Part shown: positions 10,153-27,639 of the stretch, one piece after another
Layout: every line of letters begins with the position of its first letter
Numbering within the stretch: position 1 is the first letter of the stretch
Virus record (IMG/VR): IMGVR_UViG_3300035133_000058
Coordinates: 1-27,639 of that record
Source of the DNA: a virus
Reading direction: 5' to 3' (one strand)
Length of the DNA: 27,639 nt
Notes under the pieces: generated by a model
What the model was told of the DNA's origin: nothing
The model's database searches: none
The model's input: the letters and a program-made list of their open reading frames with translations, nothing else
Program-made: the position numbers and the translations under genes

Positions 10153-11339
10153 GCGGCGTCGAGTCCACGGGGTTTGTCACCAAGACGACAGCCGAGGTCT
10201 TGGCCGAGCTAGAGACGGCAGTCAAGGACGCGCTGGGTGCCGAGATGAACACCGAAGCGGATTCGGTGATGGGCATTATCCTGGGCATCCTGGCCGACAA
10301 GTACGGCGAGCACTGGGAGGTCATGCAAGCTGTATATTCCGCCAGGGATCCAGATGCCGCTGCGGCAGCCGCGCTGGATGCCGTGTGCGCTCTGACAGGT
10401 ACATTGAGGGAGGCTGCTACCAAAAGTGATGTGACTGTGACCGTGACATGCACAGGCGTTGTCAGTGTAGCGGTAGGCAACTTCATTGTCAGCGTGGACG
10501 GCAACTCGGACGCGCGTTTTGTGAATGCAGAAGCGATCACGGCCGGCGGCGCGGGTGACGTTGATGTGTTGTTTGAGGCGGAGGAAGCCGGCGCGGTTGT
10601 GGCGAATGCGGGCACATTGACCGTCATAGAGACGCCTGTGGCCAATATCTCCGCCGTGACCAACACATTGGATGCTGATACCGGCAGCGAAACGGAGGGT
10701 GATACGGCCCTGCGCACCAAGCGCCTGGTGGAGCTGGAGGCGGTCGGGGCCGGAACGTTCGACACGGTCAAGGCCCGCCTGGCTCAGGCCGACGGGGTGG
10801 AGCACAGTACCCTGTACGAAAACACGACAGGCCGCACGGACAGCAACGGTATCCTGGGTCATCACATGTGGCCGATAGTCTATGGATCGCCCATGCCTGA
10901 CGGGGACGACGTAGCCCAGGCATTGTGGGATGCGAAGCCCGCCGGTGTAGGCATGCACGGATCTTCCAGCGGGACTGCGACGGACGCTGAAGGCAATTCT
11001 CAAACCGTAAGTTACGACGAAGCCACGGTGATCACGGTGCATGTGGCTATAACAGTGAGCACGGATGCAGACCTGTACCCCACCGACGGCGATGATCAGA
11101 TCAAGGCGGCAATCATCGCCGCAAGGGAGGCTTTTATTGCAGCTCAAGACGGGCAAGGTATCGGCCTGGATGTTTATTCGGAGCTGCTCAAGGCTGCAGC
11201 ATTCGAGGTGGCTGGAGTCATAGACATCACTGCTTGGACTATAGACACGGTCGATCCTCCTGTGGCCTCTTCCAACATCGTCATAAACGTGGACGAGTTT
11301 GCCTATTTCGACACGGCAAACATAGACGTGACGAGCTGA
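10149..11339 (+). CDS. Baseplate J-like protein (gp47/gpJ)
   Basis: This 396-residue protein has the baseplate J architecture. The N-terminal helix region (TTAEVLAELETAVKDALG) with EADSVMGIILGILADKY is followed by a repeat-rich beta region with VTVTVTCTGVVSVAVG and NAGTLTVIETPVANISAVTN. After about residue 180 comes the ETEGDTALRTKRLVELEAVG segment that marks the family core, and near 250 the HHMWPIVYGSPMPDG loop. It would form the wedge that transmits the contraction signal. The ATG overlaps the preceding TGA and is followed closely by the next gene, in an operon-like layout. Confidence 0.85.
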   Translation: MSGVESTGFVTKTTAEVLAELETAVKDALGAEMNTEADSVMGIILGILADKYGEHWEVMQAVYSARDPDAAAAAALDAVCALTGTLREAATKSDVTVTVTCTGVVSVAVGNFIVSVDGNSDARFVNAEAITAGGAGDVDVLFEAEEAGAVVANAGTLTVIETPVANISAVTNTLDADTGSETEGDTALRTKRLVELEAVGAGTFDTVKARLAQADGVEHSTLYENTTGRTDSNGILGHHMWPIVYGSPMPDGDDVAQALWDAKPAGVGMHGSSSGTATDAEGNSQTVSYDEATVITVHVAITVSTDADLYPTDGDDQIKAAIIAAREAFIAAQDGQGIGLDVYSELLKAAAFEVAGVIDITAWTIDTVDPPVASSNIVINVDEFAYFDTANIDVTS

Positions 11340-11341
11340 GC

Positions 11342-12871
11342 ATGGCGCTCGAGGAGATCACCAACCACGGGGACCTGGCTGTAGGGCTTCTGCTCGAACA
11401 GCTCAAGGACGAGGAGAAGCTAGAAGCCTTCCTGCGCGCGCTTGTAGGTCCTGCGCAGGAGCTGGAGGAAGTAGCTCACGACCTGGACACGGAGATGCGC
11501 CTGGACAACGCTGTAGGCGAGCAGCTGGATATGATTGGTCGCATCGTCAACTTGCTGAGAGGAAGTCTGTCCGACAGCGAATACAGGACAAGGCTGCGCG
11601 CGCACATACGCGCCAACAGATCCGAGGGTACGCCCGATGACTTGCTTGAGGTGCTGCGCCTGATGGTGCCCACCAATGGTCTGTCCATTGAGGAGTACCC
11701 TATCGGCGCCGTGATGCGCATTGCCGATGCATTGTCCGAGGATCCGGATGCTATCGTGTCCGAGCTGACACGGACACGTCCCTCTGCTGTGCCCTTGCAT
11801 CTGGAGTACACGGTTGTCGATGACACGGACACGTTCCAATTCGCGTCGGGTGATACAGAGGAGGCGGATACTGCCGCAGGTTTTGCTGATCAAGGATGGG
11901 TCGCTGTAGGAGCCGCCACAGGATCAGGCGCTTATATTGTGACAAGCACTGATGGTACTACGTGGACACAAAGATCCAATCCTTTGGATGAGAGACTTAA
12001 CGCTGTAGCATCTAATAGAGAGAATGTACTTATAGCGGTAGGTACTGTGATAGTAGCCAAACCCTATGCTGTTAGATCTATCGACTATGGGGTCACCTGG
12101 TCACAATTGACAATAACAGATGGGTCTCCATATGCGAGTCTTAACGGTATCACATACAGCCCAGATCTGGATTTATGGGTAGCTGTAGGCGGCGATCTGG
12201 GACCTTACGCCTCTATCTACACCTCAGATGATGATGGCGATACGTGGACCGAGAGGAGCAATCCCGATGATTGTGATTTGTACAGTGTCACATGGTGCCC
12301 TGCCTTGTCTCTGTTTATTGCAGTAGGTTCGGATGACGGTGTTGATAGCTACATCATTACAAGCCCTGATGGGATTACATGGACAGAACGGGCCAATCCA
12401 AAGGCATTTGATTTGAGAGGCGTGTGCTGGAGCGAGCAGCTTGGTTTGGCTGTGGCAGTAGGTCAGCAGGACGGTGTAGACAGTTACATAGTGACAAGTC
12501 CTGATGGGATTGTATGGACGGAACGCGCCAACCCTCAAAACAAGTTCATGTATGGGGTCGTATGGAGTCCTTTGCTAGAGCTTTTTTTGGCTATCGGATC
12601 ATACGGTGTTGATAGCTATATCATCACAAGTCCTGATGGGATCACATGGACGGAGCAGACCACACCGACGACTACGAATCTATTTGGTATAGATGTATCA
12701 GGATTGGGTAATGTCATCGCTGTAGGTAGTCATGATGGTGCAGACGCTACTATTTTGCTATCGGATGATGGTACTACATGGACTGAGCAATCCAACCCAT
12801 CAAGCTATCATTTGTACGGCATCGCAGGAATGCTACAAGGCGGCACATGGGCTCACGTCAAGGAGACATAG
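11342..12871 (+). CDS. Baseplate wedge protein (DUF2612-like) fused to an Asp-box beta-propeller
   Basis: The start is ATG 11342, two bases after the J stop; an upstream in-frame extension overlaps J and is not used. Of 509 residues, about 1-155 look like the DUF2612 baseplate/tail family: LDNAVGEQLDMIGRIVNLLRGSLSDSEYR (in parts) and RSEGTPDDLLEVLRLM. From about 170 onward there are at least seven repeats of a motif like TSPDGITWTERANP followed by W-S-P-x-L-x-L-F-I-A-V-G, the Asp-box (BNR) pattern of beta-propellers. The fusion would place a propeller, probably a receptor- or glycan-binding domain, on the baseplate. Nucleotide repeats are recognisable between neighbouring blades. Confidence 0.8.
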   Translation: MALEEITNHGDLAVGLLLEQLKDEEKLEAFLRALVGPAQELEEVAHDLDTEMRLDNAVGEQLDMIGRIVNLLRGSLSDSEYRTRLRAHIRANRSEGTPDDLLEVLRLMVPTNGLSIEEYPIGAVMRIADALSEDPDAIVSELTRTRPSAVPLHLEYTVVDDTDTFQFASGDTEEADTAAGFADQGWVAVGAATGSGAYIVTSTDGTTWTQRSNPLDERLNAVASNRENVLIAVGTVIVAKPYAVRSIDYGVTWSQLTITDGSPYASLNGITYSPDLDLWVAVGGDLGPYASIYTSDDDGDTWTERSNPDDCDLYSVTWCPALSLFIAVGSDDGVDSYIITSPDGITWTERANPKAFDLRGVCWSEQLGLAVAVGQQDGVDSYIVTSPDGIVWTERANPQNKFMYGVVWSPLLELFLAIGSYGVDSYIITSPDGITWTEQTTPTTTNLFGIDVSGLGNVIAVGSHDGADATILLSDDGTTWTEQSNPSSYHLYGIAGMLQGGTWAHVKET

Positions 12872-12874
12872 GGC

Positions 12875-14014
12875 ATGACTAAACCGACAGACCTTCCCAG
12901 GTGGGCGACAGATGCCGGACGGACGCTGGAGCCGACGAGCGGGGAGAAGGACACTGGCTGGCAGGCCGCTTACAAGCCGCCCGCTCGAAAGATGAACTGG
13001 TTATTCAATAATGTGTATGAATGGCTAATGGCTATTCGAATAGGACAGGTGAAGAATTGGCAATGGGGCAACACCTATCATTCATTCTTGGGCGTAGCAG
13101 GAGATCCTTCGGAGCAAGTGTTTGCCGCTAGCGGGGTAGATGGCATTTGGGCTAGTAGAGACGGCGCGGGTTGGAAGAGGATCGCAAATTTTAGTGGTAC
13201 CGATCACGATCATTTTGCAATGCATTTTGCAGATTCTATTTGGGTAAGCGTAGGGCGCAGTGAATTGACAGATGGACATAAAGCAGAGGCTCGTTATACC
13301 TCTAGCAATGATCCTTTTGGTACCTGGAATCTTTCCACCGTCACAGGAGCGGCTGTAGATACTGCATTGCGAGGGGTCGCATATGGCAATAGCGTCTGGG
13401 TGGCTGTTGGTGATAATGCCGAAATCGTATCAGCTGCCTCTCCCCCTACTACATGGACTCGTCGCACAGCGGCTGGATCGTATTCCGGGGATTTTCAAGA
13501 TGTGTGGTTCGATGCCACGCTAAGTCTTTTCATTGCTGTGGGATCTGGAGGGGAGATTCAATATAGCAGCGATGGTACTACATGGAGCCAGGGCACGGCC
13601 GATGGGTCATATTCCGATATTTTTTATGGGGTGTGTTCCGATGGGCTGGGTACCATTGTGGCTGTGGGCGAGAATGGAGAAATTCAAAAATCAACAAATG
13701 GTAGTACTTGGGCGACACAGACAAATCCCGAAGGCATCACTTTAGCAAGTGACTACGACGATTGGGCAGGGATTCATTATGCAGAGGGTTGTTTTGTAAT
13801 CTGTGCTGCGGAGATTACAATCAATGCCGGGGATGTCTTTTTAGCCATTTCCGAGGATGGTGAGTCTTGGGAGCTTGCATCTGTGCCGGTAGTGGGTGCA
13901 GCAGGCAAGGGCATGGACGGGCCCTCGGATATAGGTTTTAACGGCTCGCGCTGGATCGTGGTTGGGGGTCCTACTAGTGCAGACTACCTTTTGCTGGGGT
14001 TGGCCTTTGGGTAA
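12875..14014 (+). CDS. Tail fibre protein with Asp-box propeller
   Basis: This 379-residue protein begins LPRWATDAGRTLEPTSGEKDTGW and PPARKMNWLFNNVYEWL, a common N-terminal attachment motif of phage tail fibres. From about residue 70 there are repeated blades with S-x-D-G-x-x-W (IWASRDGAGWKR, SSDGTTWSQ, STNGSTWATQ) separated by 'W-V-A-V-G' strands, so a beta-propeller of roughly six or seven blades is likely. It starts 3 bases after the wedge-propeller fusion and has the same repeat type, so the two probably derive from one propeller by duplication or act together in host recognition. Confidence 0.78.
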   Translation: MTKPTDLPRWATDAGRTLEPTSGEKDTGWQAAYKPPARKMNWLFNNVYEWLMAIRIGQVKNWQWGNTYHSFLGVAGDPSEQVFAASGVDGIWASRDGAGWKRIANFSGTDHDHFAMHFADSIWVSVGRSELTDGHKAEARYTSSNDPFGTWNLSTVTGAAVDTALRGVAYGNSVWVAVGDNAEIVSAASPPTTWTRRTAAGSYSGDFQDVWFDATLSLFIAVGSGGEIQYSSDGTTWSQGTADGSYSDIFYGVCSDGLGTIVAVGENGEIQKSTNGSTWATQTNPEGITLASDYDDWAGIHYAEGCFVICAAEITINAGDVFLAISEDGESWELASVPVVGAAGKGMDGPSDIGFNGSRWIVVGGPTSADYLLLGLAFG

Positions 14015-14020
14015 GCATAC

Positions 14021-14049
14021 TTGCGCAGCCTCGCAGGGGTTTGTAGAGT
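14021..14049 (+). promoter_or_regulatory. Candidate sigma70-type promoter for the exported-protein genes
   Basis: TTGCGC (14021-14026) and TAGAGT (14044-14049) are separated by 17 bases in the 54-base gap between the fibre gene and the first exported protein. The gene's AAGGAG ribosome site follows. The fit to consensus is moderate and the call rests on this pattern alone. Confidence 0.3.
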
Positions 14050-14068
14050 TATTGTAAAGGAGCACGCA

Positions 14069-14515
14069 ATGAGGACTTTGATTTTTGCTATTTGTGTTTT
14101 GATACCATCACTGGCTCTGGCTCAGCAGGAGCTTTCGGCCGACTACCTGGATATGGATGGCGTGTCGCTTGCGGACACGCCGGAAACCGAAGCCGTCCCT
14201 ATGGCGGCGCACGGGCAAATGACGCAGCTCACCCTGCGCTACACCATCACATGGGGCACATCCACAAAGATGACTGTCAAGTGCAAGACTTCCGCCAGCG
14301 AGGCATCGGGCTACACGTGGGTGGATGCATGCCAATACGACGGTACATACCACCAGTGCAAACCGCTCGTGTGGCGTTGGGACAGTACCAACAGCCCGGA
14401 TGGCTTGGCTACATTGGAGCTCCGATCAAATGCCCGGTACGTGATTTGCGTTTCCGATGATCCAGACGACGGTACCGGGACCGTGGTGGTGACTGGAACG
14501 AGGGGGCGGCCATGA
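14069..14515 (+). CDS. Exported protein with signal peptide, unknown function
   Basis: The start is ATG 14069 with AAAGGAG upstream; an in-frame extension from 14021 lacks a ribosome site. The 148-residue product has a clear Sec signal peptide (MRTLIFAICVLIPSLALA, then QQ), with cleavage likely after residue 18. The mature part is beta-rich (MTQLTLRYTITWGTSTKMTVKCKT in parts) with four cysteines after the signal, compatible with two disulfides outside the cytoplasm. No family recognised. It is the first of three signal-peptide proteins that follow the fibre genes. It could be a virion component exported before assembly, an envelope-modifying or exclusion protein; none of these is shown. Confidence 0.75.
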   Translation: MRTLIFAICVLIPSLALAQQELSADYLDMDGVSLADTPETEAVPMAAHGQMTQLTLRYTITWGTSTKMTVKCKTSASEASGYTWVDACQYDGTYHQCKPLVWRWDSTNSPDGLATLELRSNARYVICVSDDPDDGTGTVVVTGTRGRP

Positions 14516-14631
14516 CAAGCATCGCTTGGGTTGCCCATATGCCTGATGGTCAGCCGGTATATTGCGCTGTGCTGTCGGATGGTTCAATTGTAATATCATA
14601 CGACGGAATCGATTGGGAGGTGTTGCAATGA
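14512..14631 (+). CDS. 39-residue protein resembling a single Asp-box blade
   Basis: ATG 14512 overlaps the previous stop by four bases (ATGA), with GGGGGCGGCC upstream. The stop TGA (14629-14631) overlaps the next gene's ATGATG. The product reads MTSIAWVAHMPDGQPVY...VLSDGSIVISYDGIDWEVLQ (shown in parts). The segment SYDGIDWE has the S-x-D-G-x-x-W Asp-box signature of the propellers encoded upstream. It is tightly packed between two genes, which favours real translation. It could be a propeller blade relic or a small strand-donating partner. Confidence 0.5.
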   Translation: MTSIAWVAHMPDGQPVYCAVLSDGSIVISYDGIDWEVLQ

Positions 14632-16007
14632 TGTTCAGAAATGATTTTAATCGCGTGCTGGCTGCGCTTCTAGCCTCTCTGGCGGTCGCTGCTTTGCTGC
14701 TCGTCGAGGCCTCAAAAGCCCGTGCCGAAGGGTGGTTCAATCCGGGCATCGAGGGGGGTAGTGGTCTGAGCTCAGGTGAGTACGACCTGGATGGCGACTG
14801 CTTAAGATTTGACGATGCCGGAGATCCGAATACCTATTTGTGTCCGAGCGCCGCCGACGAGGTGACGCTGACTTGTGGCGGCGCCGATGTGTGGGTCTGC
14901 AACGCGTCTGGTTGCGATCTGGCAGGAGAGCTCGGTGCGGTGACGTCGTTGGATGCCACTACACTCGCTACTATCGTCGCAGCTATCAGCGGCAACGGTT
15001 CCGAGTACGATGATGACGTTTCGGTGTGCTGGGGCGACGACGATGATTTTTGTATCGAGCACGATACGGATGGTTCACCAGATGGCCTGCGGCTCACTCA
15101 GGCGGACTGTGATGGATCGCCGTGCAACCCGTTGGAGTTTTATAAGAGCGGCGGGGATAACGTGATTGCGATGCGTGCTTCGTCGTTCACGAACCCGGAT
15201 GGCAAGATGACATTCGGGCTGGCGGGAGCGTCGAGTTATGCGTGCGGGGCGAATTGCTCTCATTTTAGCGGACCTGTGGAATTTAGCGATGTGGCAAGTT
15301 TCGGTAATTATGCCCTTTTCTATAGCACTGCAGGTTTCTATGGTCATTTAACCATGGCCAGAAATAAGTTACTATACGTTGGTCCTGAGGGAATGTGGCT
15401 TGTCCTTTCTACAGAATATTCACCATATCCAGGCGGATTCTTCCTACATCCTAGTTCGAATCACTTACTTGTCGGAAGTCAAACGTATTACGAATATAAT
15501 TATGGTTATTCTGTACCAGACGACCCTACGATTATATTGAAGTCAAGCGAAAATCCAGCAACGGACAGCACTCAGGATTCGTGGTGGACATGGAACCGCT
15601 TAGCCCTTGGCGGTAACGGGGGCGGTTACGGTTGCATCAACCAAACCATCGCCTACGATGACTTCACGGATGGCGGCGGGTTAGTTGGGACTCTCATACT
15701 CAATGAAGGCATCCCGGACGGTGCGGTTGTGCAACGTTCTCTTTTGCACAGTTTGACGGGATTTACCGGTGGCGCTAACACAACAGCGACCGCCCAGATA
15801 GGGGACGGCACCGACGCAGATAGATATACCACAGGCACGCCGGACGTGTACACGTCCAACGCAAGCGGTGCGGATCTCGGCGTCCCGTCAGGTACGGTAT
15901 TTCACGACGACGAGAAAGATGTGACTGTTACCGTCACGGTCGACAATGATTGGGGCACAATTGCAGCAGGGGAAGCAACCGTAGCTGTTTGTTATTGGAC
16001 ACCTTGA
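14628..16007 (+). CDS. Large exported cysteine-rich phage protein, fibre- or decoration-like
   Basis: The start is ATG 14628 (MMFRNDFN) with GGAGGTG upstream; an in-frame extension to 14562 is rejected for lack of a site. Of 459 residues, 1-34 form a Sec signal peptide (basic N-region, AALLASLAVAALLL core, A-x-A-like ARA end). The middle contains many cysteines (LCPSAADEV, WVCNASGCD, ADCDGSPCNP, YACGANCSH) and tail-fibre-like aspartate/glycine-rich repeats. The last ~120 residues (DGTDADRYTTGTPDVY, then VTVTVTVDNDWGTIAAGEATV) resemble a beta domain widespread in phage virion proteins. An export signal on such a protein is unusual. Confidence 0.7.
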   Translation: MMFRNDFNRVLAALLASLAVAALLLVEASKARAEGWFNPGIEGGSGLSSGEYDLDGDCLRFDDAGDPNTYLCPSAADEVTLTCGGADVWVCNASGCDLAGELGAVTSLDATTLATIVAAISGNGSEYDDDVSVCWGDDDDFCIEHDTDGSPDGLRLTQADCDGSPCNPLEFYKSGGDNVIAMRASSFTNPDGKMTFGLAGASSYACGANCSHFSGPVEFSDVASFGNYALFYSTAGFYGHLTMARNKLLYVGPEGMWLVLSTEYSPYPGGFFLHPSSNHLLVGSQTYYEYNYGYSVPDDPTIILKSSENPATDSTQDSWWTWNRLALGGNGGGYGCINQTIAYDDFTDGGGLVGTLILNEGIPDGAVVQRSLLHSLTGFTGGANTTATAQIGDGTDADRYTTGTPDVYTSNASGADLGVPSGTVFHDDEKDVTVTVTVDNDWGTIAAGEATVAVCYWTP

Positions 16008-16022
16008 CGCAGAGGATTTGAC

Positions 16023-16334
16023 ATGACAGGAAAAATTATTGCATTGATCGCCGGTATTATGCTGGGTGGGATTTCGGCTAATGTACCTAAGACCTTCTCT
16101 TTATCTCTCGATAATTCCGGAGCAGTAGCACAAGCGCTGTGGAATTGGGTTGAAGCACGCAGTTGCGGTTCTTTTGATTCCTCCTATGGGCTGTCAGCGG
16201 GCACATGCGCTACGCTAATGGACCCGTGCATTGCCGGGACGGTCTTCTCAGCCACGTGCAACGGCACCACGAATCAGACGGACATGTCCGTCTCGTACAA
16301 TCCGCCCGGACAATTCGAGGTGACCGTCCCTTAG
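16023..16334 (+). CDS. Small exported protein, unknown function
   Basis: This 103-residue protein starts at ATG 16023, 15 bases after the previous stop, with an AGAGGA site. The N-terminus MTGKIIALIAGIMLGGISA looks like a signal peptide cleaved after residue 19. The mature part has four cysteines (RSCGS, GTCATLMDPC, SATC), again even in number, as expected for disulfides. It ends in a beta strand (NPPGQFEVTVP). No family is recognised. It forms a set with the two exported proteins before it and precedes the lysis-like genes. Confidence 0.65.
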   Translation: MTGKIIALIAGIMLGGISANVPKTFSLSLDNSGAVAQALWNWVEARSCGSFDSSYGLSAGTCATLMDPCIAGTVFSATCNGTTNQTDMSVSYNPPGQFEVTVP

Positions 16335-16344
16335 GAGTAGAGAA

Positions 16345-16605
16345 GTGGCAGTACAACGCAAAGGCCTGAAGTGGTGGGGAGCTGGCATCGGAATCTTCAC
16401 GACGCTACTTGGTGGATCGATTGCCGGGTTTACGCTCTGTGACAGAGTCAACGCGGCGGATCCGTGGTCGGCCCGAAAAGAGATTGATGGGCTCGACGCA
16501 CGCGTGACCGCGCTCGAGAAAGGCCAAGCGGAGATCAAGGGGATGCTTCGCGCAGTGGTCGAGGCAACCGGGGCTCGTTACGATCCACCATCTGACAGAG
16601 AGTGA
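16345..16605 (+). CDS. Membrane protein with one TM helix and a coiled coil (lysis-associated?)
   Basis: This 86-residue protein starts with GTG at 16345, with TTAGGAG upstream. The order is: short basic N-terminus (MAVQRKGLK), one hydrophobic segment at about 11-31 (WWGAGIGIFTTLLGGSIAGF), and a charged helix at 45-72 (EIDGLDARVTALEKGQAEIKGMLRAVV in parts) with heptad character. A TM helix plus coiled coil is seen in XhlA-like lysis accessory proteins and in i-spanins. The context immediately before a holin candidate favours a lysis role. The exact function is undetermined. Confidence 0.6.
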   Translation: MAVQRKGLKWWGAGIGIFTTLLGGSIAGFTLCDRVNAADPWSARKEIDGLDARVTALEKGQAEIKGMLRAVVEATGARYDPPSDRE

Positions 16606-16631
16606 CAAGGTCGCTTGTCTTGTGGTAGCAT
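16602..16631 (+). promoter_or_regulatory. Candidate promoter in front of the holin-like gene
   Basis: GTGACA (16602-16607) and TAGCAT (16626-16631) are separated by 18 bases in the 51-base gap before the holin candidate. The -10 is followed after exactly 6 bases by an ATG at 16638 that opens a five-codon ORF (MLEET), inside which GAGGAG serves the ATG at 16657. The layout resembles the early-region promoters. The match is moderate and could be chance. Confidence 0.3.
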
Positions 16632-16656
16632 CAGCGCATGCTCGAGGAGACATGAC

Positions 16657-16890
16657 ATGCAACCGCTACCTCATGACGGATGGAAAAGCCGAACCTACCT
16701 GACCACGCTTGGCCTCTTAGCCCTTGTCTTGATCGTGTCCGTCGTGTGCCTGTTCTGGCCCGGTGAGGAGCCCAAGTGTACGTTTGTCGAATGGACAGGA
16801 TTTGTGCAGGGCCCGGTGGTGTGGATTCTCGGGCTCGGTCTGGGCAAGGCGGGCTGGGACAAGCACGAGCAGCGCAAGGCTGCTCAGTGA
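16657..16890 (+). CDS. Holin candidate (small two-TM protein)
   Basis: The start is ATG 16657 with GAGGAG upstream; an in-frame extension to 16615 is unsupported. The 77-residue product has a first hydrophobic segment at about 14-34 (YLTTLGLLALVLIVSVVCLF) and a second at about 48-64 (FVQGPVVWILGLGLGKAGW, partly). It ends with a charged tail (KHEQRKAAQ). Size, two TM segments and the polar C-terminus fit phage holins, which make lesions in the inner membrane for lysis. The call rests on topology and on its place beside spanin-like genes. Confidence 0.5.
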   Translation: MQPLPHDGWKSRTYLTTLGLLALVLIVSVVCLFWPGEEPKCTFVEWTGFVQGPVVWILGLGLGKAGWDKHEQRKAAQ

Positions 16891-17180
16891 TCAAGGTGCT
16901 CAAATGGGCAGTGGGCCTGCTCGGGCTCCTACTCGGCGCCGCGGGCACGGCGCTTTGGCTGAGGCGCAAGCCCATGATCTCGGCGGATGCTGCCAAAAAG
17001 ACCGCCGCAGACGCCTCCAGGAGAGCCGAAAAGACCAGGCGGGATGCCCAGAACCTGGCGAGCTTAGAGACGCGTCAGGACCGCACAAAGACGCAGGAGC
17101 GGCAAGATGCTGACGATGTGGACCTTGGCGGCATGCTTGATCGCCTCGACGCCAGTGCCAGATCTCGCCCCAAGGGATGA
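16887..17180 (+). CDS. i-spanin (Rz)-like protein with N-terminal TM
   Basis: GTG 16887 overlaps the holin candidate's TGA; an in-frame extension to 16776 is rejected. This 97-residue protein has an N-terminal hydrophobic segment (VGLLGLLLGAAGTALWL). A long, highly charged lysine/arginine/alanine-rich helix follows (KKTAADASRRAEKTRRDAQN and further), typical of inner-membrane spanins. Its 3' part overlaps the next gene by 74 bases in another frame, the nested arrangement of Rz/Rz1 pairs. A spanin would join inner and outer membranes in the last step of Gram-negative lysis. The role is inferred from topology and nesting. Confidence 0.5.
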   Translation: MIKVLKWAVGLLGLLLGAAGTALWLRRKPMISADAAKKTAADASRRAEKTRRDAQNLASLETRQDRTKTQERQDADDVDLGGMLDRLDASARSRPKG

Positions 17181-17574
17181 TGTTTGGGAGGCGCCCTCCC
17201 TGCCAGCATGGCCAGAGGGGTTGTCTGGTTGGCGCCGTACACCGGGACAGGCCAAATGCTTCGCCGGCGGGCTCGAGCTGGGCAGAGGCATCTGGCTGCC
17301 ACATCCCTACAATGTCGCGCTGACAGAGAGACTCAAAGCCTGCGAGGGTCTACCGGGTCTGATGCAGCGACAGCTCGAGCGCATCCAAGGGAAGATCCTG
17401 CCTGACTTTGTCAACGCAGCCGTGAACGAATCTCTGGCATGGGACAGGGCGCAAAGGATCGCCGAGCAGGAGAGCGCGGGTTTTCTGTCAGATCTTGCTC
17501 TGACGGTCGCGATCGTGGTCGGTGTGTTAGGGTTCGCCGGCGGGCTCGCGATCGGCATCGTCGCTGCGCAGTAG
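17107..17574 (+). CDS. Outer/unimolecular spanin candidate (possible lipobox, C-terminal TM)
   Basis: This 155-residue protein starts at ATG 17107, with AGGAG just upstream, inside the i-spanin-like gene. Near the N-terminus LTMWTLAACL contains an L-A-A-C lipobox at residues 7-10, although the preceding segment is very short and uncharged, so processing is uncertain. The middle is soluble and helical (QRQLERIQGK, DRAQRIAEQE). Residues 128-152 form a clear TM segment (LALTVAIVVGVLGFAGG and on). Lipobox plus C-terminal TM is the architecture of u-spanins such as T1 gp11. The 3' end overlaps the convergent gene by 48 bases. Confidence 0.45.
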   Translation: MLTMWTLAACLIASTPVPDLAPRDDVWEAPSLPAWPEGLSGWRRTPGQAKCFAGGLELGRGIWLPHPYNVALTERLKACEGLPGLMQRQLERIQGKILPDFVNAAVNESLAWDRAQRIAEQESAGFLSDLALTVAIVVGVLGFAGGLAIGIVAAQ

Positions 17575-19226: not shown

Positions 19227-19822
19227 TGGGCGGGTACTCCAGGGCAATGCTCCTTTCGAAGCATCTCGTTGATCCTGTCTGTCATGCCATCGGGGCCGAA
19301 TAGCCGAAGCGGATGGGGATCCGTTGCTACTGCCGTACACGACCTGCCACGCACATAGCGGTCATACCGGTGCATGAGCTCATGCACCAGAGATGTGCGG
19401 AACACGCACTGCGTTCCCGATGGCACATATACCCGGATCTGTTCGTTGCGGGCGCACATGAGAGACGTGCCGGCAACGAGTCTGTGGGTAACGGGGTTGA
19501 TGATGGGTCGATTCGAGAACCAAATGGAAAAAGGATGCATATCGCTGTCACCCAGTACTGTAGTGACTGCATCACGCACAGCAGCCTCGTCCACAGGCTC
19601 ACCCAAGATCGGTATTCGAGCCTCCTGCTCTTTGGACCAGTCCGTCCAGCTGCCGCAGCCGGGCAGTAGCCGGCTGACAATAAAGGCCATCCCTATTACC
19701 CAAATCATGGTCTTATAGGGACCGAATTTCCAAAGGCAGAATAGCCCATTTCCCAGTACTATCAATGACCCGATAGTAAATACCACACCGTACACAAACG
19801 CACCCATTACCTCAATATACAT
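19223..19822 (-). CDS. Membrane-anchored HExxH metallopeptidase-like protein
   Basis: The start is ATG 19822, two bases after the upstream TAA, with a GGGGG stretch before it; a TTG at 19834 is less likely. The 199-residue protein has two hydrophobic segments near 7-30 (GAFVYGVVFTIGSLIVLG) and 37-54 (KTMIWVIGMAFIVSRLL). A soluble part follows with VHELMHRYDRY: H147-E148-x-x-H151 is the zincin catalytic pattern, and H170 in ATDPHPLRLF could be a third ligand. Zinc peptidases of this type cleave peptides or cell-wall crosslinks; the substrate is unknown. It lies among small early genes, not in the lysis cluster. Confidence 0.6.
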   Translation of the reverse strand: MYIEVMGAFVYGVVFTIGSLIVLGNGLFCLWKFGPYKTMIWVIGMAFIVSRLLPGCGSWTDWSKEQEARIPILGEPVDEAAVRDAVTTVLGDSDMHPFSIWFSNRPIINPVTHRLVAGTSLMCARNEQIRVYVPSGTQCVFRTSLVHELMHRYDRYVRGRSCTAVATDPHPLRLFGPDGMTDRINEMLRKEHCPGVPAQ

Positions 19823-19824
19823 GA

Positions 19825-20088
19825 TTACCCCCAAGGTGTCCCGTCAGAGTTAGTCATCGGGGCGTTCGCGCCAGTTTTGACGCCTCTATCCTTGTAGTTG
19901 CTCCATTGCTTGACCATGTCGCCAAACCCGCTGACAATGTATGCTACGTTGTCAGCGGGTTTGCTGTTGTCGCTTTTGCAGTTGTTGCAAATGAGCCCCC
20001 GGCCGAAGTGCACCCAGCCGCATGCCTTGCATACCCATCGCTCACCTTCTTGTAGATGAGCCCGGCACCTGCGTACGTTGCGCGGCAT
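19825..20088 (-). CDS. Small zinc-ribbon protein
   Basis: The start is ATG 20088 with GAGGTG upstream and overlapping the previous TGA (TGATG); an in-frame extension to 20268 is rejected. The 87-residue product has C20-x2-C23-x10-C34-x2-C37 in VCKACGWVHFGRGLICNNCK, a classic zinc-ribbon pattern suggesting nucleic-acid or protein binding. A DNA segment inside this gene (19924-19962) forms a 39-base near-perfect inverted repeat, described separately. No specific family recognised. Confidence 0.65.
   Translation of the reverse strand: MPRNVRRCRAHLQEGERWVCKACGWVHFGRGLICNNCKSDNSKPADNVAYIVSGFGDMVKQWSNYKDRGVKTGANAPMTNSDGTPWG
19924..19962. repeat. 39-base near-perfect inverted repeat (hairpin) inside a coding gene
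   Basis: The arms AAACCCGCTGACAA (19924-19937) and TTGTCAGCGGGTTT (19949-19962) are exactly complementary over 14 bases. Three further pairs (GTA/TAC) close a 3-base loop after one T:G position. In plus-strand RNA this T:G is a U:G wobble, giving an almost continuous 18-bp stem; in minus-strand RNA it is a C:A mismatch. It lies wholly inside the zinc-ribbon gene. Confidence 0.75.
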
Positions 20089-20393: not shown

Positions 20394-20613
20394 TGCCGTG
20401 CTCCTCTCCTTTGGTTCGGTTTTTCTTCAAGCGATCCAGCAGCCTGGCTCCGCGGGCCGCCGACCTGAGCGTGCTGCGGTAGGCTTCCTCGGCTACCGAC
20501 GTATCACCGGTGCCGAGCTCTGTGCGCATGATCTCGATCTGTGCGCGCATTTTTTGCAAGCCGAGCACATCGTCTTTTTGGCCTTCGCCCTCGGGTCTGC
20601 CGCAGTACCTCAT
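20371..20613 (-). CDS. Small charged helical protein, unknown function
   Basis: This 80-residue protein starts at ATG 20613, overlapping the upstream gene's stop (ATGA). It is rich in Glu/Lys/Arg, with helices (LGLQKMRAQIEIMRTELG and AYRSTLRSAARGARLLDRLKKN). Its 3' end overlaps the next start by 23 bases. No family is recognised. The overlapping arrangement and lack of a promoter suggest cotranscription with the upstream genes. Confidence 0.6.
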   Translation of the reverse strand: MRYCGRPEGEGQKDDVLGLQKMRAQIEIMRTELGTGDTSVAEEAYRSTLRSAARGARLLDRLKKNRTKGEEHGNEAIEKG

Positions 20614-21035
20614 GCTAGCTCGGGCTCCATGACGATGGCCCCGTCATCCATGATGCCCACCGACATAGTGGTACCGCAAGGGCAATTTCGTAGCTCGAGC
20701 TCTGCTGGTTCGCCGGGCTCGCGCATCTCCACCGGCATCCGACCGGTGTACGGCAGATCCTGCCATCCTTCCAGCGTGTAGGTCGTGCCGCAGCATGTGC
20801 AGTCTTTCGTACCCGGACAGATAACGCTCGAGCACAAGGCCCGTGCCATCGCGCGCGCATCTGCTTTGCCGACATCTATGCCGAGCGCGATCAGCTCTTG
20901 TAAGTGCTCAGCCACGACAGGCGTGTACTTGTTGTGCCCTAATGCCACGCAGCACACGGCTACTCGCAACCAGTCGCGGGCATCGACAGCTTCGAGCCTT
21001 AATTGATCGATTTGGTCGTCTGTGATTGTCCTCAT
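20610..21035 (-). CDS. Cysteine-rich accessory protein with phage-type N-terminal helix
   Basis: This 141-residue protein starts at ATG 21035 with AGGAGAG upstream. The N-terminus TITDDQIDQLRLEAVDARDW is a motif common to small accessory proteins of phages and plasmids. The second half contains cysteine groups: CPGTKDCTCC near 73-82 and later NCPCG near 117-121, which could bind zinc. The protein ends with GAIVMEPELA. The hairpin repeat at 21059-21100 lies 24 bases upstream of the start. A specific function is not known. Confidence 0.6.
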   Translation of the reverse strand: MRTITDDQIDQLRLEAVDARDWLRVAVCCVALGHNKYTPVVAEHLQELIALGIDVGKADARAMARALCSSVICPGTKDCTCCGTTYTLEGWQDLPYTGRMPVEMREPGEPAELELRNCPCGTTMSVGIMDDGAIVMEPELA

Positions 21036-21058
21036 TGGCGTCTCTCCTGGCGGTAGCG

Positions 21059-21100
21059 CTGCCTAGCCCTCCGGCCCCGCGGGGCTGGAGGGCGCGGCAG
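21059..21100 (-). repeat. Hairpin repeat, copy 1
   Basis: A 42-base inverted repeat reads on the minus strand CTGCC-GC-GCCCTCC-A-GCCCC-GC-GGGGC-C-GGAGGGC-TA-GGCAG. It starts 12 bases after the stop codon of the gene ending at 21113 and precedes the next gene. A second copy is at 21687-21727. No U-tract follows, so a simple intrinsic terminator is unlikely. It may be an RNA-stability, attenuation or REP-like element. Confidence 0.7.
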
Positions 21101-21112
21101 ACGGGCTACTGC

Positions 21113-21364
21113 TCAGCCCACTCGGGCTGCCGCGCGGCTCCTAGCCTCGCCGCAGCAGTAGAGTCTGGCGGCCTCGTCGCCCTCAGACGCTTTGTCGCAC
21201 ATCTCCATAATGGGGGTCTCGCCCATCAGATGAGCTTCACAATAGAGGTCGCCCAAGTCGTCCGCCGAGAAGTGTCTCGCCATAATCCGTAAATCATAAT
21301 CAGAATAGTCGGGATGGATCGTCGTCTTCTTTGTCATCGTCTCTGTCTCCTGTGTCATCGTCAT
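21113..21364 (-). CDS. Small acidic protein driven by duplicated promoter copy 1
   Basis: The first ATG is at 21364, exactly 6 bases after the promoter -10 GATACT, which would give a leaderless message and 83 residues. A later ATG at 21334 has AGGAG upstream and is the alternative start. A far longer in-frame extension to 21571 runs through promoter DNA and is rejected. The product is acidic, with segments YSDYDLRIMARHFSADDLGD, MGETPIMEMCDKASEGDE and a final YCCGEARSR. The function is not recognised. A hairpin repeat follows the stop after 12 bases. Confidence 0.6.
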   Translation of the reverse strand: MTMTQETETMTKKTTIHPDYSDYDLRIMARHFSADDLGDLYCEAHLMGETPIMEMCDKASEGDEAARLYCCGEARSRAAARVG

Positions 21365-21466
21365 GATCCTAGTATCGGCGACTTTGTCGCAAACTTCAAG
21401 GAAATCGACACGGGATGATCGACTTTTTTCGTCAATGGAATCGAGTACTTCCGTGAGCATTAGCTG
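21361..21466 (-). repeat. 106-bp direct repeat, copy 1 (promoter cassette)
   Basis: This segment matches 22346-22452 over about 106 bases with roughly 90% identity by eye and one single-base gap. It contains a remnant of the HTH gene's C-terminal codons (a frame reading LTEVLDSIDEKS), an A6 tract, the operator/promoter and the ATG. In this copy the remnant is not part of a complete gene. Confidence 0.8.
21371..21399 (-). promoter_or_regulatory. Early promoter, duplicated copy 1, with palindromic operator
   Basis: On the minus strand TTGAAG (21394-21399) and GATACT (21371-21376) are 17 bases apart, and the spacer holds GCGACAAAGTCGC, a perfect palindrome with a 3-base centre. The -10 is followed after 6 bases by ATG 21364. 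Spacing and similarity to the copy at 22356 support function. Confidence 0.6.
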
Positions 21467-21467
21467 G

Positions 21468-21659
21468 CTAGCGCTCAGTCCACTCGCCGATCTTGAGCTC
21501 GCCGGGCGCAAGAGGAACATCCATCCCGACCTCTTGCGCGTTGCGGCGCGCGATTTCGAGCAGCTCTTCATCCGTCATGTGCGATTGCTCCTCGCACGTT
21601 AGGACTACGGAGGCTTGTCGATCGGCCGATACCCAGTAGCACGCTCTGTAGGTTCTCAT
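21468..21659 (-). CDS. Small phage protein, unknown function
   Basis: This 63-residue protein starts at ATG 21659 with GAGGAG upstream. It begins MRTYRACYWVSADRQASVVL with a strand pattern, continues with SHMTDEELLEIARRNAQEVG and ends in a short tail with WTER. Short proteins with this layout (beta start, then 'S-D-E-E-L-L' helix) occur widely in phage accessory regions, with unknown function. A hairpin copy (21687-21727) lies 27 bases before the start. Its stop is next to the end of the promoter repeat. Confidence 0.6.
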   Translation of the reverse strand: MRTYRACYWVSADRQASVVLTCEEQSHMTDEELLEIARRNAQEVGMDVPLAPGELKIGEWTER

Positions 21660-21686
21660 CGTCTTCGTCTCCTCTCAGCAGTAACG

Positions 21687-21727
21687 CTGCCTAGCCCTCC
21701 GGCCCCGCGGGCTGGAAGGCGCGGCAG
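21687..21727 (-). repeat. Hairpin repeat, copy 2
   Basis: This 41-base element is nearly identical to 21059-21100. It differs by one C/G loop-side deletion and one stem change: in minus-strand RNA GCCUUCC pairs with GGAGGGC through a U:G wobble, whereas plus-strand RNA would have an A:C mismatch. Structure conservation in minus-sense RNA supports action in that transcript. It starts 9 bases after the stop codon of the gene ending at 21737. Confidence 0.72.
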
Positions 21728-21736
21728 GCTCTACTG

Positions 21737-21910
21737 CTAGTCGATATTCTGCAGGTTCTCGAGGTACTCCAAGTCAGCGTCCGACAGAAACCGTCTCACG
21801 CTGCCGAGTCTGACCGACCCGTCATCCAGCAGCTCGACGTGATCCCAGTTGGTAGCTATGACAATGAGGTCGGCTTCGGGCATCGTGTCTTTGATATCTG
21901 AGGTCTCCAT
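21737..21910 (-). CDS. Small acidic protein, unknown function
   Basis: The preferred start is ATG 21910 with AAGGAG and 6-base spacing (57 residues). ATGs at 21937 and 21934, just after the previous stop, would add eight or nine residues, and an extension to 22261 overlaps another gene and is rejected. The product is acidic and compact: EADLIVIATNWDHVELLDDG, then RLGSVRRFLSDADLEYLENL. The upstream leader (ATGATGACACAA...) resembles the start of the neighbouring gene at 22349. No family is recognised. A hairpin follows the stop. Confidence 0.55.
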   Translation of the reverse strand: METSDIKDTMPEADLIVIATNWDHVELLDDGSVRLGSVRRFLSDADLEYLENLQNID

Positions 21911-21941
21911 GATTTGCTCCTTGAGTTGTGTCATCATCTCT

Positions 21942-22349
21942 TTAAAGTTGGATGGCACCAACCAACAACGGTTCGCCATCGCTACCTTTGTCGTAGTGCA
22001 GCCACCCAGCCACTTTGCGCACTGGACGGTCTTGCCCTCCAAAACCTCGCATCCAATCGTAGGCATCGCTCCCATCGAGCAACCGCGCCACCGACACACC
22101 AGCCTCGGCTTTGTCGTCCGCGTAGTTGCGTGACACACCCGACTCGGGTAGATCCCCGTAGCGCTCCGCCTCGACCCAACGGGGCTCCTGCTCATCATTG
22201 TAGCCGGCATGCCAAAATAACCGCAGCACCGGGTCGTCCATCCAATGGCCCCAGCGCTCACCGTCTGGCCCGTAAGCGATGTCCATCATGTCTTGGCCAG
22301 CATGGGCTTTGCCGTGTCGATAGGCTTGCTGCATTTCTTGCGTCATCAT
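21942..22349 (-). CDS. Small protein with Rmf/CrpP-like N-terminal pattern
   Basis: The start at ATG 22349 (MMTQEMQQ) lies 6 bases after promoter -10 GATACT, so the message is probably leaderless; an extension to 22430 would run through the promoter and is rejected. The 135-residue product contains QAYRHGKAHAGQD and later LRLFWHAGYNDEQ. This A-x-x-x-G-x-x-A ... R-x-x-W-x-x-G spacing is loosely like ribosome modulation factor/CrpP-like small proteins. The C-terminal half (WLHYDKGSDGEPLLVGA) is unassigned. The family suggestion is tentative. Confidence 0.55.
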   Translation of the reverse strand: MMTQEMQQAYRHGKAHAGQDMMDIAYGPDGERWGHWMDDPVLRLFWHAGYNDEQEPRWVEAERYGDLPESGVSRNYADDKAEAGVSVARLLDGSDAYDWMRGFGGQDRPVRKVAGWLHYDKGSDGEPLLVGAIQL

Positions 22350-22452
22350 GATCCTAGTATCGGCGATTTTGTCGCAGATATCAAGACAAATCGACACGAA
22401 ATGATCAACTTTTTTCGTCAATAGAATCAAGTACTTCCGTGAGCACTAGCTG
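22346..22452 (-). repeat. 107-bp direct repeat, copy 2 (promoter cassette)
   Basis: This is the counterpart of 21361-21466. In this copy the left-hand codons (LTEVLDSIDEKS) are the genuine C-terminus of the HTH gene ending at 22405, followed by the A6 tract, operator, promoter and ATG of the next gene. It is therefore the likely source of the duplication. Confidence 0.8.
22356..22384 (-). promoter_or_regulatory. Early promoter, duplicated copy 2, with palindromic operator
   Basis: On the minus strand TTGATA (22379-22384) and GATACT (22356-22361) are 17 bases apart, and the spacer contains GCGACAAAATCGC (GCGA...TCGC arms). The -10 is followed after 6 bases (AGGATC) by ATG 22349. The promoter overlaps the 3' end region of the HTH gene. 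Confidence 0.62.
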
Positions 22453-22659
22453 ATACCTCGAGCCCCCGGGCCCGTGCCGGCTATCTCGGACCACGAGCTC
22501 CTGGCCTGCCTGTCTGCCGGCGGCGTCCGCCCGGCGCAACCACCGGTGCACCGTGGCCCTGTCGACACCGAGCCATTCCTGCAGCGCCGCGAAGGTGTGT
22601 GGACACTGCAGCAGAGCCACCAGCCGATCGAGAACCCTCAGATCAAATGAGCGCGGCAT
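22405..22659 (-). CDS. Small helix-turn-helix DNA-binding protein
   Basis: This 84-residue protein starts at ATG 22659 with AAGGAG upstream, overlapping the previous gene's stop. It has an HTH: ALLQCPHTFAALQEWLGVDRATVHRWLRRADAAG (read in parts), with 'D-R-A-T-V-H-R-W-L-R-R' as the likely recognition helix. A short wing-like tail follows (RDSRHGPGGSRYQLVLTEVL). It could repress or activate the nearby promoters, whose spacers share a CGACAAA element. Its last codons are part of the promoter repeat. No specific family assigned. Confidence 0.7.
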   Translation of the reverse strand: MPRSFDLRVLDRLVALLQCPHTFAALQEWLGVDRATVHRWLRRADAAGRQAGQELVVRDSRHGPGGSRYQLVLTEVLDSIDEKS

Positions 22660-26892: not shown

Positions 26893-27639
26893 TCACTGAC
26901 CGCCGGAGAATTCCTCGGGCCTGTAGGGGCGCCACTTGTGCGCGGTGACCTGTCCTCCCTTTTTGGTGCTCGTGGGTGCGGTATCCAGGCGCACCAGCTT
27001 ACCCCTCAGAGGGTTGGCCGGGCTTATGGCGAGCTCACCGGCAGCCACCGCGCTTTGCTCAGTGGGAAAGGCCTGTTTGAGCGCATCCTTGTCATAAGGA
27101 TCCACTCCATTAGCCGCGCCGATAAAGCCTTTCAGGCGCCCCCTCCAACCTTCCCAGGCACAGGATTGATACCAATTCCAGGAGGTACCGACGGCAACAG
27201 AGGGGTTGCCCGACCAGACGATTTTGAAATCGACGATCACGGAATTGCTTTGCCGGCCCTGGTTGAAAAACACGCGCTCTATTTCCGCCACGTATGTCGC
27301 TGTGGCCAGAGGCATATAGTTGCCGGTCTGAGATGGGTCCTCGTTGCCCATGCCATCAAATATGCTCCCACCGCCACCGGTAAACGGCTGGCCATACTGC
27401 TGTGCCGGCTGCTGCGGGGGATAGCCGGGCTGGGCCGGTTGCTGCCCGAAAGGCGGATAGGCGAAGCCGGGCTGGGCCGGGCCGGGCTGGGCCGGGCCGG
27501 GTTGCTGCGTGGGATAGCCGGGCTGGGCCGGGCCGGGTTGCTGCGGGGGATAGCCGGGCTGGGCCGGGCCGGGTTGCTGCGGGGGATAGCCGGGCTGGGC
27601 CGGGCCGGGTTGCTGCGGGGGATAGCCGGGCTGGGCCGG
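26893..27639 (-). CDS. Replication-associated SSB/DUF669-like protein with Pro-Gly-Gln repeats (partial)
   Basis: The frame runs open to the right edge (248 residues visible), so the ATG at 27351 that opens the C-terminal body is not the true start. The N-terminal part is a repeat of YPPQQPGPAQPG (12 residues, 36 bp), followed by a glycine linker ending SIFDGMGNEDPSQTG. The body has strands (YVAEIERVFFNQG, VIVDFKIVWSG) and KLVRLDTAPTSTKKGG. This resembles OB-fold/DUF669-type phage replication proteins, but that is an inference. A disordered PGQ tail on a DNA-binding protein could drive condensate-like clustering. It is the first gene of the visible minus-strand block. Confidence 0.6.
   Translation of the reverse strand, partial: PAQPGYPPQQPGPAQPGYPPQQPGPAQPGYPPQQPGPAQPGYPTQQPGPAQPGPAQPGFAYPPFGQQPAQPGYPPQQPAQQYGQPFTGGGGSIFDGMGNEDPSQTGNYMPLATATYVAEIERVFFNQGRQSNSVIVDFKIVWSGNPSVAVGTSWNWYQSCAWEGWRGRLKGFIGAANGVDPYDKDALKQAFPTEQSAVAAGELAISPANPLRGKLVRLDTAPTSTKKGGQVTAHKWRPYRPEEFSGGQ
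27421..27639 (-). repeat. 36-bp in-frame tandem repeat encoding YPPQQPGPAQPG
   Basis: The unit boundary ATAGCC occurs at 27514, 27550, 27586 and 27622, each 36 bases apart, and the array continues past the right edge. Degenerate units occur at 27421 and 27457. The repeats stay in frame with the partial gene, so the array varies in steps of 12 residues. Confidence 0.85.

Follow-up and report, generated by a model that had tools for sequence, protein, structure and literature searches.

The window, the whole stretch of viral DNA that was analysed (27,639 nt, the 27.6-kb record of a virus that we call W), carries on its minus strand an array of five small genes laid out as R1-a-b-R2-c-R1′-d-R2-e, where R1 is a repeat with a putative promoter and R2 is a repeat that folds into a hairpin. 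The array lies behind a gene for an 84-aa HTH protein (22405–22659), whose 3′ end falls inside R1 copy 2. Gene a (21942–22349, about 135 aa) has a probable leaderless start and is followed by gene b (21737–21910, 57 aa), gene c (21468–21659, 63 aa), gene d (21113–21364, about 83 aa, with a second in-frame, SD-preceded ATG at 21334), and gene e (20610–21035, 141 aa), in which an N-terminal cassette domain is fused to a C-terminal CTCCGT domain. None of these cassette genes gave a significant match to Pfam or PHROGs, and the structure predicted for gene a, at a pLDDT of 38, was too poor to use.

We compared W with the near-identical G001 (3300042731_009922), a second assembly that is 99.6–99.96% identical to W across the stretches it covers; with A (G002, 3300036975_000082, locus L004) and B (G003, 3300035137_000063, L005), which share roughly 70–80% nucleotide identity with W across shared stretches; and with G004 to G010, additional records found via the R2 hairpin. 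Small array genes outside the window are lettered g, h, i, j, k, and l. Homologs of gene a are present in G004 (96%) and G009 (86%) at other array positions, and the G004 homolog of gene b is preceded there by another gene and R2. Gene c recurs in B, fused to another cassette, and in G009, after a degenerate hammerhead; gene d had no homolog in the other arrays. The N-terminal domain of gene e is as in A and G007, and its C-terminal CTCCGT domain is conserved and terminates the arrays of A and B. Acidic proteins make up 8 of the 11 cassette products encoded at 20610–22349 and in the relatives' arrays (net charge −5 to −17 per 100 aa; the mean over all ORFs under 400 aa is +1.5, for comparison), and they could possibly be DNA mimics.

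The two R1 copies (21358–21466 and 22343–22452, both on the minus strand) are 88.2% identical over 110 nt (in-window BLAST, E = 6e-33), with the match broken into two pieces by a 1-nt indel in one alignment; the promoter repeat that an earlier note had put at ~106 bp and ~90% by eye is thus real. Sequence matches to the four parts that the note had named occur in each copy: an A6 tract, the palindrome GCGACAAA(G/A)TCGC as candidate operator, promoter boxes of the form TTGA(AG/TA)-17-GATACT, and the ATG of a small gene. In copy 2, which we regard as the ancestral head promoter, TTGATA (22379–22384) and GATACT (22356–22361) stand 17 nt apart, with the palindrome at 22363–22375 and the ATG at 22347–22349. 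In copy 1, a derived duplicate that retains an HTH remnant, TTGAAG (21394–21399) and GATACT (21371–21376) have the same spacing, with the palindrome at 21378–21390 and the ATG at 21362–21364. In its upstream half, including A6, R1 consists mostly of HTH coding sequence from the 3′ end of that gene, and the strongly conserved core is the ~44 nt from the −35 box to just beyond the ATG. A programmed frameshift at A6 was considered and rejected because the slippery heptamer is out of frame and the tract was not found in the head promoters of other lineages.

All head promoters that we found have the arrangement TTGNNN-17-(−10 box)-6-ATG. Because the −10 box lies 6 nt before the ATG, transcription would start on or beside the A of the start codon, and the R1 transcript is probably a leaderless mRNA; a second, SD-preceded ATG in frame with the first is found in W copy 1, in A, and in both G004 arrays. 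R1 is probably a sigma-70-type promoter that would head an accessory-gene operon. Scans for the head-promoter pattern and for gene g, one of the cassette genes, yielded no additional records.

The R1 palindrome is located between the −35 and −10 boxes. Spacer palindromes read GCGACAAAATCGC in R1, CCGACAAAATCGG in G009, AGCGAAAGATTCGCT in G007, and CGCTA-N7-TAGCG in one G004 promoter, and the spacers of three head promoters (that of G006 and two of G004) have no palindrome; by chance, arms of 4, 5, and 6 occur in 8.6, 1.2, and 0.2% of random 17-mers. The HTH protein matched Pfam HTH_23 with E = 2.5e-5, just below the cut-off, and has homologs in the W lineage and G009 only. The operators of both contain CGACAAAATCG, and HTH homologs occur only in lineages with a CGACAAAATCG operator, an association that is thin because just two operator lineages carry the HTH gene. 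A further putative promoter, P0 (22851–22887, minus strand; TTGCAT-16-TACAAT-6-ATG), precedes the genes leading to the HTH gene, and its spacer resembles that of R1 (P about 0.001). The small protein is likely the repressor of R1, acting via the spacer palindrome, perhaps with autoregulation.

A and B have one R1 each, behind the same HTH gene, which indicates that copy 2 is the ancestral one. The HTH-coding part of copy 1 is identical to copy 2 at 40 of 46 positions (34–35 of 46 for A and B), and its promoter core has diverged (38/44); the core of copy 2 is 43/44 identical to those of A and B. Being nearest to copy 2 in the HTH part and diverged in the core, copy 1 is best seen as a duplicate that arose in this lineage, in agreement with the earlier proposal that it is derived. 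Both copies are present in G001 near its two contig ends, and ~200 nt of the window is missing between them. A single crossover at R1 with a donor bearing a-b-R2-c probably inserted these genes and left the second R1 behind.

R2 occurs in the window at 21028–21113 and 21652–21738 (81% identity over 90 nt, in-window BLAST, E = 1.7e-14). Its hairpins fold with −42.4 and −40.7 kcal/mol (z-scores of −4.1 and −4.4), and 0 of 200 shuffles folded as well. On the minus strand, the hairpin core of copy a spans 21050–21112 (82.7 bits with the covariance model described below), with the SD and ATG of gene e reaching to 21033, and that of copy b spans 21678–21737 (71.2 bits), with the SD and ATG of gene c reaching to 21657. 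At 60–63 nt, the cores are longer than the 41–42 nt first assigned to them, because the outer stem includes a GCARTAG segment. The hairpins had also been thought to close the gene groups. The copies end 1 and 4 nt before the SD (AGGAG) of the next gene and are followed by no U-run, so they are intercistronic joints that connect genes rather than end groups, in the order stop codon, hairpin, Shine-Dalgarno, start codon. Predicted accessibility of the ribosome-binding site is 0.54 with the hairpin and 0.49 without it, and a role in pure insulation of that site is weakly supported since the gain is so slight.

Viral contigs were scanned for an R2 pattern and then for a looser one, and a covariance model was built from 16 copies. 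The looser pattern added one further true record (L054); by the covariance model, its other new contigs were chance matches. With the model, R2 is found in 11 records (about nine distinct viruses), in one to three copies each and in five lineages, with E-values of about 1e-14 to 1e-18 except for one divergent copy in B. All copies point in the sense of the array and, G004 excepted, lie at one locus per record. The consensus has 22 pairs, 98.8% of cells are paired, and four pairs are changed on both sides; none of 500 shuffles reached these values, and slid structures collapsed. One-sided changes make G-U pairs on the sense strand, and sense scores (70–88 bits) exceed antisense scores (30–46 bits), also in the divergent copy (49.9 versus 22.5). 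It is thus the sense strand that folds, and its simplest identity is the mRNA. Of 17 copies, 11 have their internal TAG in a reading frame that stays open over 50 codons or more, and this TAG probably serves the preceding gene as its stop codon. In all 17, the SD of the next gene begins 0–6 nt past the stem. We found no matching family in Rfam, the hammerhead models included.

By ORF content, the five lineages are W/A/B, G004/G006, G005/G010, G007, and G009 with the fragment G008, and only 1–8 ORFs of at least 80 aa are shared between lineages. The DNA polymerase and major capsid protein of W have homologs in G001–G003 only and none in G004–G010. The portal of W belongs to phrog_146, and from our reading of its ORFs the virus presumably has sheath-like and baseplate-like genes; G009 is marked by a P22 portal and an integrase, G004 by Terminase_3, and G007 by a phrog_2662 portal. 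The ORFs that W shares with other lineages are mainly tail-fibre-like and neighbouring genes (11234–17574). Among them, a tail-fibre-like protein and the small gene after it (14562–16334) are common to otherwise different phages, and in the 103-aa protein at 16023–16334 W shares 96% identity with the P22-like G009. This sharing suggests a common host, and the five lineages probably infect the same bacterium. A search for the host among genome contigs, with the R2 pattern and with a tail-fibre profile, gave no match. Isolate phages and plasmids did not match the array DNA, which had 0 matches among 50,697 phage records, and no phage protein matched gene a or the tail-fibre-like protein. Elsewhere in the window, gene 11234–12871 of the tail region encodes a repeat-rich, beta-propeller-like protein and contains internal repeats of ~135 nt (12320–12654); diverged direct repeats (72%) occupy the window end (27407–27639), with more copies in G001; and palindromes lie within other genes at 19923–19963 (41 nt, 88%) and 19369–19388 (20 nt, perfect).

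Arrays of different lineages share small genes at 70–97% nucleotide identity in other orders, and this sharing of joints and cargo by five lineages, which lies outside the window, is the more important fact. In B, G009, G004, and G010, a different gene comes after gene h and its R2 each time. After gene j and R2, the next gene is h in G009 and b in G004. A and B lose homology 14 nt past the R1 ATG and regain it 1 nt before R2, with different genes in between. Overall, 58 of 194 homology-block ends coincide with an edge of R2 or of a hammerhead or with a head ATG, where random slides give an expected 24.5 ± 4.5 and reached as high a count in 0 of 1000 trials, the ends not being independent of one another. 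The same parts thus accompany different small genes in related phages, as a check proposed with the earlier note had asked, and its idea of a plug-in module holds insofar as the promoter with its operator and the hairpin carry exchangeable small genes, for which it had suggested a possible role in host takeover. Its view that promoter and hairpin were duplicated together as one unit is not supported, because R1 is single in close relatives and R2 numbers one to three, the two varying independently. In-frame cassette fusions through a translated SD-ATG linker were seen where R2 is absent, in B (L005:7154–7735, 193 aa, linker ...EQKTM...) and in G007 (L045:3442–4482, 346 aa, linker ...EQETM...); the hairpin looks either to have dropped out of them or never to have entered.

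Some joints carry a ribozyme in place of R2. Type II hammerheads scoring above the Rfam gathering score occupy a joint in A (L004 7814–7879, 47.3 bits) and one in G010 (L083 1107–1165, 40.2 bits), and a third, in G009 (L046:4764–4833), is degenerate at 30.1 bits. Gene l, present in both of the sister phages G005 and G010, follows R2 in one and a hammerhead in the other; the block of homology begins 6–7 nt past R2 and past the hammerhead alike. This replacement is the best evidence that R2 acts on the message, where it probably marks a cut. Directly ahead of its array, G005 has an ordinary U-rich intrinsic terminator (L043:2555–2612), indicating that these phages use U-runs where they terminate.

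We consider it reasonably probable that the array is a cassette system with a leaderless, repressible head promoter and with R2 joints that serve both as processing sites and as homology for exchange. R1 would start a leaderless mRNA, with the small HTH repressor acting through the spacer palindrome. In the transcript, R2 would fold and mark a processing site, by RNase III-like cleavage or as a stability barrier; that RNase III makes the cut is a guess from stem length and position. Each small gene would become a separately translated message, whatever its neighbours, and in some arrays a self-cleaving type II hammerhead would act at the joint position instead of R2. R2 is probably an mRNA-processing joint that additionally offers homology for cassette exchange: since the joints repeatedly present the same R1 and R2 DNA, co-infecting phages could recombine and swap cassettes there, and a swap would work even between phages with few other shared genes. 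More tentatively, we propose that myovirus-like, P22-like, and other lineages on one host exchange cassettes by a route without a dedicated recombinase, in which an undescribed RNA element and hammerheads would be interchangeable joints that cut the message and supply the homology for swapping.

R2 might instead be a recombination patch only, the kind of conserved linker repeat seen in other mosaic phages, with a hairpin that has no function in RNA. Homology blocks do end at R2, and identity of the element between lineages reaches 97%. We nevertheless consider this unlikely, given the two-sided compensatory changes, the sense-strand G-U pairs, the fixed position between stop codon and SD, and the hammerhead that replaces R2. 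A further alternative makes R2 a transcription terminator or attenuator at the close of each gene group. The strong, GC-rich hairpin fits such a role, but there is no U-run, an SD and start codon follow directly, and a terminator scan gave no match at R2, whereas G005 has a normal U-rich terminator before its array. This we regard as improbable.

Marginally less probable again is a single-strand recombination site like the integron attC, moved by a dedicated recombinase. In an integron, a single head promoter serves the cassette array and every cassette has its own folded site; the likeness extends here to a hairpin at each cassette end, variable cassettes, and a tyrosine recombinase in G008 and G009. 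However, none of the 16 aligned R2 elements contains the attC core RYYYAAC/GTTRRRY, no tyrosine integrase was found beside an array, and among 10 records the Phage_integrase matches in G008 and G009 lie several kb from the joints, the other eight records, some of them fragments, being unmatched. The joint, moreover, bears the SD of the next gene and can be replaced by a hammerhead. Least likely of all, we think, is that the shared arrays are assembly chimeras of co-occurring phages. All of the records stem from a small number of samples, and assemblers can be misled by 63-nt repeats, but homologous cassettes differ by 3–30% between genomes, which gives each its own home; the G009 array was found again in a second sample (L016, L017); and the second assembly, G001, matches the window over the stretches it covers.

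The arrangement of processing joints and exchangeable cassettes that we favour would be one possible way for phages to acquire small accessory genes and express them immediately. Because joints, head promoter, and swapped cargo are visible in 11 records of five lineages, the exchange route is directly testable. R2 joints make up a new family of structured RNAs, and the hairpin is a sequence handle for finding more small genes of the pool. Replacement of R2 by hammerheads suggests a natural role for these ribozymes in cutting polycistronic accessory messages into units.

Among known systems, the early genes of T7 have RNase III sites, intercistronic hairpins of about 20 pairs near stop and start codons. 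The R2 stem resembles them in lying between cistrons and in its 22 consensus pairs (the criterion is about 20 or more); it differs in that its cleavage is predicted from sequence and that it is the joint of a cassette pool, a role in which, to our knowledge, T7 RNase III sites are not known. Type II hammerheads have been described in phage-related polycistrons, and in Agrobacterium tumefaciens three of them flank the anti-restriction gene ardA (PMC3088659). The likeness is a self-cleaving RNA near accessory genes, with the same family at two joints here; the difference is that R2 itself is no hammerhead.

The nearest arrangement is that of the SAS and ESAS repeats of Cluster K mycobacteriophages, which lie before the starts of small non-structural genes (PMC3203893, PMC11373665). 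SAS is an SD-bearing start motif, with a leaderless transcript predicted for one gene (PMC3203893, PMC11373665), and ESAS are SigA-like promoters with an inverted repeat (PMC11373665) whose arms gave no support for RNA pairing (PMC3203893). R1 and several other head promoters likewise combine a promoter of this type with an inverted repeat, a likeness that does not mean descent; the fixed 13-bp SAS GGGATAGGAGCCC, which in those phages stands just before the start codon, is absent here, with 11 sites of at most 3 mismatches against 8.5 expected and none at the joints. ESAS accompany the same gene families within a single phage cluster, whereas R2 forms an RNA fold, sits between cassettes, and is spread over five lineages. 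The nearest concept is that of the PeSLs of T4-like phages (Arbiol 2010 and Comeau 2014, as cited in PMC4177764 and PMC5931544), small promoter–stem-loop cassettes that, to judge from those references, were proposed to mediate modular shuffling of phage genes. Both systems, as far as those citations describe PeSLs, pair small regulatory cassettes with modular gene shuffling. Going by the title, a PeSL combines promoter and terminator in one composite motif and is described within T4-like phages, whereas R1 and R2 are separate and differ in copy number, the R2 hairpin has no U-run, and the carriers are other lineages, five in all.
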